Below, one piece after another: positions 48,381 through 48,602 of a stretch of 64,000 nt of DNA; position 1 is the first letter of the stretch, and the number at the start of each line of letters is the position of its first letter. A program made the position numbers and the translations under genes. This DNA is from Sphingobacteriaceae bacterium. GTDB lineage: Bacteria; Bacteroidota; Bacteroidia; B-17B0; Aurantibacillaceae. The notes under the pieces are model-generated. The model ran no database searches. It saw only the letters and a list, made by a program, of their open reading frames with translations, and was not told the origin of the DNA. Location: assembly GCA_947480015.1 (NCBI GenBank), contig CANKBS010000005.1, positions 1-64,000 of the forward strand, given 5' to 3'.

Positions 48381-48602
48381 GGCGCCTCCCCATGAAGCAG
48401 AAAGGCTTTGGGTAATTTTGGATAGCCTTTCGCTTCATGGGGCCCTGCTAACACACAATCTGGCTCAAAAGGCTACGAGCCTTTTGCCCTGCTATACCCG
48501 CTTGCCATAAAGAGGAGCGGGTTTTTGCTGCGGGGTCTTTGCCCTAAGGGTCAAAGCTCACGCACCAGCCGGCTCAAAAGTTTACAAAACTTTTGCCCTG
48601 CC
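48381..48602. repeat. Multi-hairpin intergenic element with two related stem-loops
   Basis: Five inverted repeats lie in 222 bases of otherwise gene-free DNA (gap 48228-48747). A: CCCCATGAAGC 48388-48398 plus GAAAGGCT 48400-48407 pair with 48424-48442 (19 pairs, one bulge). B: CAAAAGGCT 48466-48474 with AGCCTTTTG 48478-48486. C: ACCCGCT 48496-48502 with AGCGGGT 48516-48522, then T. D: CTTTGCCC 48537-48544 with 48548-48556 (one bulge). E: CAAAAGTTT 48575-48583 with AAACTTTTG 48587-48595. B and E share flanks (GGCT before, CCCTGC after) and differ by paired changes. It resembles dispersed hairpin elements between genes of Flavobacteriia, but I cannot confirm copy number. Confidence 0.7.

Follow-up and report, generated by a model that had tools for sequence, protein, structure and literature searches.

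A Flavo-1-related, multi-hairpin repeat downstream of secA that is probably a decayed MITE-type DNA element

Bacterial MITEs are short, gene-free elements that carry terminal inverted repeats and are flanked by target duplications. The BOX elements of Streptococcus pneumoniae are modular interspersed repeats with strong secondary structure and a variable number of internal modules (PMC3049150), and REP/RAYT palindromes bear a GTAG/CGTC tag at the foot of the hairpin (PMC3733652). Thousands of REPs have been predicted in two Flavobacterium genomes, as described in PMC12306157. A further family of structured repeats, Flavo-1 (RF01705), is known from Bacteroidetes as an RNA, and a 2022 review (PMC9029176) lists it as one of the most abundant sRNA families of bacteria. 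A literature search on interspersed and palindromic repeats of the Bacteroidetes, including Flavobacterium, with subscription journals mostly outside its scope, found nothing evidently on the element described here, and one on double-hairpin elements returned nothing of use.

The element lies in the window, the whole 64,000-nucleotide stretch analysed, which belongs to a genome of 3.77 Mb in 66 contigs (G000). Its hairpin cluster occupies non-coding DNA 3' of secA, between secA and a phosphoglucomutase gene at position 50266. The first-pass annotation had described five inverted repeats at 48381-48602, and direct reading together with a repeat search established that they are real. All coordinates given below refer to the forward strand. 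Hairpin A, also termed P2, spans 48388-48442, with arms at 48388-48398/48432-48442 and 48400-48407/48424-48431, and contains three pairs with two-sided changes. Hairpin B (48466-48474/48478-48486; CAAAAGGCT/AGCCTTTTG) was found by the repeat search. Hairpin C (48496-48522; arms 48496-48502/48516-48522) was recovered by both the repeat search and RNAalifold, and its 3' arm could alternatively pair with 48604-48612. Hairpin D (48537-48556), with arms at about 48537-48541/48552-48556, was identified by RNAalifold, and hairpin E has its arms at 48575-48583/48587-48595 (CAAAAGTTT/AAACTTTTG). The predicted RNA fold of 48381-48602 lies far below that of shuffled sequences (z = -4.5; 0/200).

Hairpins B and E fall within a 56-nt direct repeat of 75% identity, and each is held in a module: U1 (48450-48492), which consists of a spacer, CAAAAGGCT/AGCCTTTTG and CCCTGC, and U2 (48557-48601), which is absent from the copies L011, C63 and C2:9909 discussed below. 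The paired substitutions that set the stems of B and E apart, as first proposed, held up; they do not amount to three independent compensations. The differences mostly change as one block, and the contrast within the locus is therefore largely the swap of a hairpin half. Among genomic copies, the stem of hairpin B reads GGCT in seven and GTTC in three.

The hairpins of the originally proposed 222 bases do belong to the element, while its boundaries had been drawn too narrowly: the real unit is larger and the stem that closes it ends outside. This stem, P1, pairs a 5' arm GCGCC at 48382-48386 with a 3' arm GGCGC at 48649-48653, beyond the right-hand limit first assigned; it is helix 1 of the RNAalifold structure and covaries in relatives. 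A short stem P3 is formed by CTG at 48445-48447, which is homologous in position to a GGG of Flavo-1 and was assigned by reading the sequence, and its partner CAG at 48645-48647. Next to the latter, at 48634-48645, lies a 3' motif of the CCGCTNCRRTC type, here GTCGCTTCGGTC, which is common to Flavo-1. The core that is conserved at the nucleotide level among full-length genomic copies runs from 48375 to 48639. The element as a whole probably extends over 411 nt, from 48317 to 48727, as judged from the sites that best fit a position weight matrix (PWM) built on terminal repeats found in a congener (G017, see below), the 3' end being uncertain.

Further copies populate the same genome, and the suggestion of a mobile palindromic element was supported in this respect. 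A DNA search with a 270-base query gave 57 matches at E≤10, among them the window copy and eight near-complete copies with 84-91% identity over nearly the whole query. Partial copies include L002 (97%) and L011, which are somewhat truncated, L012, which comprises the right-hand part, and shorter pieces. When two mismatches at most were allowed, 54 sites of the start motif TTTGGGCGCCTCCC were counted, compared with 7 for the reversed control. The copies are dispersed and carry no gene, as in MITEs. An exact pattern of module B had no match in the genome contigs searched. Most of the 38 start sites extracted fall into two subfamilies, type I, to which the window copy belongs, and type II, which has a CCCAATCAGGC hairpin and ends in CATCCCATGGCGC. 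Type II copies (e.g., L078, L120-L123) have other hairpins within a common GGGCGCC/GGCGC frame and show the same kind of exchangeable modules.

Comparison of the type I copies supported the initial idea that what is preserved is the pairing and not the sequence, and extended it far past the locus. RNAalifold folded ten of them, L002 and L012 being left out, into a closed multi-branch structure of 81 pairs, of which four columns are mostly G.U, a kind of column that RNAalifold favours. Two-sided changes were present in 13 of the 81 consensus pairs, compared with 5.9 ± 1.6 in shuffles (0/500); one of five covariation measures, the number of further pair types, showed no excess over shuffles (138/500). 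P1 is invariant among these ten copies, and both P1 and P3 covary in relatives. The hairpin module, composed of a spacer, a 9-bp stem, a 3-nt loop and CCCTGC, is gained and lost between copies. In the 31 modules of the window's genome there are 18 distinct stems, whose 279 pairs comprise 265 Watson-Crick, 1 G.T, 4 A.C and 9 other combinations; 13 modules in relatives contain 110 Watson-Crick, 1 G.T, 1 A.C and 5 other pairs.

Modules of this type also occur in other arrangements. Three loci of the congener G030 (L105, L106 and L108) contain tandem arrays of hairpin modules inside CTCGACCTGACATT-type repeats, as if a repeat had been inserted into a repeat. At L102 (G001:C1:635000-637000), three 97-base tandem repeats lie downstream of a tRNA gene, and each combines one hairpin module with a fragment of the tRNA 3' end.

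The family reaches beyond the window's genome, and the absence of conservation in relatives that would have spoken against the first interpretation was not observed. In a search of 60 genomes, the window's own included, 19 had matches at E≤0.01, and 18 of those belong to the genus. Two copies in the congener G001 share 72% and 71% identity with the window (E = 1.4e-32 and 5.6e-17), and the arms of the second read GGGCGTG...GGGTCGGGC...CCCTCACGC, with GGGCGTG/CACGC and GGG/CCC pairing. Two copies in G010 contain the start and hairpin A of the window element (84% and 82%; E = 3.1e-10 and 2.0e-9) and score 34.7 and 40.9 bits against RF01705, below its gathering cut-off of 42. Such bridging copies in congeners link the window element to Rfam Flavo-1. 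Canonical copies match the Flavo-1 model with a best E of 6.7e-12, the matching strand being the reverse of the one given here for the element. Within the genus, RF01705 matched 35 of 40 genomes at E≤1 (own genome included) and exceeded the cut-off in 24 of the 40; in control genomes, 4/14 had matches at E≤1 and none was above the cut-off. Across the class, the core GGGTCGGGCTTTCCGCT, with at most one mismatch, was present in 43 of 198 genomes and 27 of 120 genera, with two control matches.

The window copy itself is a relative of Flavo-1, not a member. It has the Flavo-1 architecture of P1, P2 and P3 together with the CCGCTNCRRTC motif, the motif and the position of P3 being read from the sequence, and it shares the 3' motif, the positions of P1 and P3, the multi-copy state and the occurrence in Bacteroidetes. 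Unlike Flavo-1, it is longer, holds extra hairpin modules and has GCGCC/GGCGC and CTG/CAG arms, and it goes unrecognised by the model: a search with RF01705 gave no match in 48200-48760 at E≤5 and none at the gathering cut-off in the window. The one Flavo-1 match above the cut-off in this genome lies elsewhere.

The Rfam model in turn looks incomplete, covering what appears to be part of the unit. Judged from the borders of its hits, it lacks the 5' arm of P1 and most of P2 and reads the opposite strand. Sixty Flavo-1 hits of the genus (20 + 40 loci), taken from among the higher-scoring ones, were read, and 59 were parsed, one being skipped. In 53 of the 59, a complement to the P1 3' arm of the same element lay no more than 130 nt beyond the Flavo-1 hit, compared with 53/767 for the arms of other elements; with [GA]G required in front, these figures became 48/59 and 6/767. 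P3 was perfect in 55 of the 59 hits, with seven pair sets, and is the weaker evidence for incompleteness because it may lie inside the Rfam model. Among 110 canonical elements picked by motif from the genus and class, P1 was perfect in 98 and realised in ten pair sets, including the GCGCC/GGCGC of the window, although the picking motifs partly fix its first two pairs and elements of one genome are not independent. A locus of another genome (L174; G150:C154, about 3300-3650) holds a tandem of three Flavo-1 units, whose 130-base period includes flank, and tandem duplication therefore also multiplies Flavo-1 units.

Terminal repeats and target duplications were found in the congener G017. When 20 of its loci, picked by Flavo-1 score, were aligned, most extended to common terminal inverted repeats of 23 bp (GGRTCAAKCGGAANNGNNGGGGA), while a few ran off the end of a contig, were composite or had another form. 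Twenty repeat-bounded elements were collected, one of which (L476) was dropped as an artefact. In the remaining 19, an 8-bp target duplication matched at six or more positions in 18, seven or more in 17 and all eight in 7; swapped flanks used as a control reached at least 6/8 in 18 of 342 combinations and at least 7/8 in 3 of 342. All 19 contain a Flavo-1-like core, and 11 of them came from loci found by the repeat pattern. This pattern has 67 sites in G017, compared with none in the control, and two in the window's genome, compared with one in the control, both lying where type I copies end on the 3' side. Elsewhere, no excess emerged from a blind search for terminal repeats accompanied by 8-bp duplications, with one case each among 34 elements of the window's genome, 59 of the genus and 89 of the class; it recovered just 5 of the 20 G017 loci and is hence insensitive. 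The combined signature is demonstrated only in G017.

The window may retain remnants of such ends. A possible 5' terminal repeat lies at 48317-48339 (CAATCGGTCAGAAATTTTGTACA; weak PWM site, corrected value 0.17) and a possible 3' repeat at 48705-48727 (AATACGGTTTTTCTGTTTGATCT; weak PWM site, corrected 0.10-0.12), and neither site is significant alone. Their offsets, -54 and +87, are close to the values in some of the sisters (-56 to -62 and +84 to +88); the clearest 3' repeat, in sister L006, is at +151, unlike that of the window. The 5' repeat is clearer in sisters L003, L004, L005, C25 and C63 (corrected 0.001-0.014), the 3' repeat is clear in L005, L006 and C2:9909 (corrected 0.001-0.002), and the remaining sisters show little trace of either. 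The outcome was the same with a PWM that included the two sites from the window's genome and one rebuilt without them. No 8-bp target duplication is recognisable at the window copy, which is taken as a decayed relative of the duplication-bearing elements.

The sites of the element family are labile. The phosphoglucomutase gene follows secA after 46 nt in G001, 109 nt in G030 and 153 nt in G019, and the window therefore exceeds these three by about 2 kb at this place; the distance is 636 nt in G231 and 1325 nt in G010. Between the element and the phosphoglucomutase gene, at 48748-49462 on the minus strand, are genes for a HigB-type toxin (PF09907, E = 7.3e-31) and an HTH protein (PF01381, E = 2e-8). 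This stretch is part of the roughly 2 kb and is absent from the corresponding place in G001, G030 and G019. A match to secA was present in 35 of the 40 genomes of the genus, with 30 loci retrieved. Scanned by motif up to 1.5 kb beyond secA, a procedure that decayed copies could escape and for which one locus was partly masked, 29 congener loci yielded a single Flavo-like relative, antisense and 1.2 kb on, in G010; a tie of the element to secA was rejected on this count. At an orthologous site in another genus, the element was present in 6 of the 20 returned loci, the query included and the loci read by eye, and these elements differ in hairpins and P1 arms. One site is occupied in two Flavobacterium species, with a different inner hairpin.

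One account of the covarying helices places them in RNA. The element would then be transcribed and its helices selected as RNA, in an sRNA or an untranslated-region element, as Flavo-1 was first catalogued. This would fit the covariation seen among the genomic copies and in P1 and P3 of relatives, the low folding energy of both strands (plus, z = -3.4, 1/200 shuffles as low; minus, z = -4.2, 0/200), the grade 'y' given to Flavo-1 as an RNA in Table 1 of Weinberg 2010 (PMC2864571) and the several transcribed 5' regions of F. psychrophilum that coincide with Flavo-1 hits (PMC9723704). The pattern of mismatches points the other way. An RNA helix tolerates G.U on one strand. The stems of the element contain G.T and A.C mismatches in near balance (P1, 4 and 6; P2, 5 and 5; P3, 2 and 1; 11 and 12 in total, the P1 pairs being counted by hand, from small numbers and related elements), whereas control tRNA stems of the same loci, read at fixed positions, had 18 G.T, no A.C and 6 other mismatches in 204 pairs of 12 tRNAs (p = 2.7e-4). 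A symmetric stem finder returned one G.T and two A.C in hairpins of canonical elements, the same figures in elements of the window's genome, and G.T and A.C counts of 4 and 0 in upstream and 0 and 1 in downstream flanks. Consensus-fold columns in which a Watson-Crick pair is commonest have 6 G.U and 7 A.C cells. Orientation to genes is likewise random. From 91 elements, less 21 that overlap an open reading frame (naive frames of at least 100 aa) and 14 at edges, 56 were placed: those in co-directional gaps lie 21 on the same strand and 20 on the opposite one, 4/56 are in divergent gaps, compared with 42/171 background gaps (p = 0.004), and 11/56 are in convergent gaps, compared with 23/171 (p = 0.28). 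For 38 elements of the window's genome, of which 3 are at edges, 1 overlaps and 1 is unplaced, 19 are co-directional (12 same, 7 opposite), 13 convergent and 1 divergent. The structured-RNA option of the first-pass annotation, for which neither strand-specific tolerance of wobble nor a preferred orientation to genes was found, and whose element is not retained at the secA site in congeners, is thus unlikely. From the strand-symmetric wobble, we infer that the palindromes are kept at the DNA level.

How such DNA is moved admits further alternatives. Repeats of the REP/BIME type would travel as single-stranded hairpin DNA through a Y1 tyrosine transposase (RAYT), and dispersed palindromes, modules in tandem arrays and one Y1 transposase match in the window's genome could be read in this way. 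That sole match (L081; G000:C37, around 539-883), however, is set amid small hairpin repeats of its own, of the CTCCTTCGGAGC and TCCCTACGGGACTG types, and is likely to be a separate RAYT/REP system. A Flavo-like element lies within 1.5 kb of 2 of 30 Y1 loci from 16 genomes searched, both at one orthologous site; G030 has elements and lacks a Y1_Tnp match at E≤0.001; neither a GTAG nor a CGTC tag was read beside the hairpins; and the G017 copies have 8-bp duplications. RAYT mobilisation was rejected, given the different hairpins at the Y1 gene and the lack of linkage across Y1 loci, and is left as very improbable. IS1595 gained no support as the mover either: a search restricted to IS1595-type transposases (PF12762) found none with the ends of the element and no match in G017 or G000 at E≤0.001, with one match each in G001 and G025. 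ISL3, IS66 and IS256 are further families with 8-bp duplications. A variant of the preferred explanation, tentative yet of some weight, supposes two layers, in which a transposon with terminal inverted repeats captured a Flavo-1 hairpin unit that was older and already spreading independently; the terminal repeats would then account for this genus alone, and the class-wide spread would be due to another mover. Terminal repeats with duplications in G017 only, remnants in the window's genome, and neither signature detected around canonical units of other groups would agree with it, but older copies would in any case no longer carry either signature, and the search has low sensitivity; for the window, both versions may hold.

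The reading that we prefer, with a probability of roughly 70%, is that the window copy is an old, non-autonomous MITE-type DNA transposon of about 411 nt, without a gene and with an expanded Flavo-1-type interior. This interior consists of the closing stem P1, the long hairpin P2, the short stem P3 and hairpin modules that can be exchanged. Staggered cuts giving rise to 8-bp duplications would be made by a transposase that acts in trans on the terminal inverted repeats, and the window copy would share the history of the G017 copies. Copies exchange entire hairpins, as the gain, loss and swap of modules show, and the palindromes would be maintained on DNA. Like bacterial MITEs, the element is short, gene-free and mostly intergenic, with terminal repeats and target duplications in relatives; unlike them, it has an elaborate covarying interior, and no autonomous partner was found among transposases of the IS1595 type. 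Likened by description, it shares with BOX, from another phylum, a modular and interspersed nature, varying module number and strong secondary structure. It resembles REP/RAYT repeats as a dispersed extragenic palindrome and differs from them in the absence of the GTAG/CGTC tag and of RAYT linkage and in its 8-bp duplications.

For the family as a whole, the balance tips slightly toward the view that Flavo-1, rather than being an RNA gene, is one part, read on an arbitrary strand, of a group of mobile palindromic DNA elements that spans the class and whose covariation would come from DNA-level pairing and hairpin exchange. If so, a catalogued sRNA family would have to be re-annotated as mobile DNA, with its model extended to the P1 arm and the P2 hairpin, and the G017 insertions would provide a concrete set for identifying the mover. 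The balance of G.T and A.C would serve as a simple test applicable to other orphan "RNA" motifs. Strong covariation, the usual argument for RNA structure, would in this case arise on DNA, and covariation alone would therefore be no proof of RNA.
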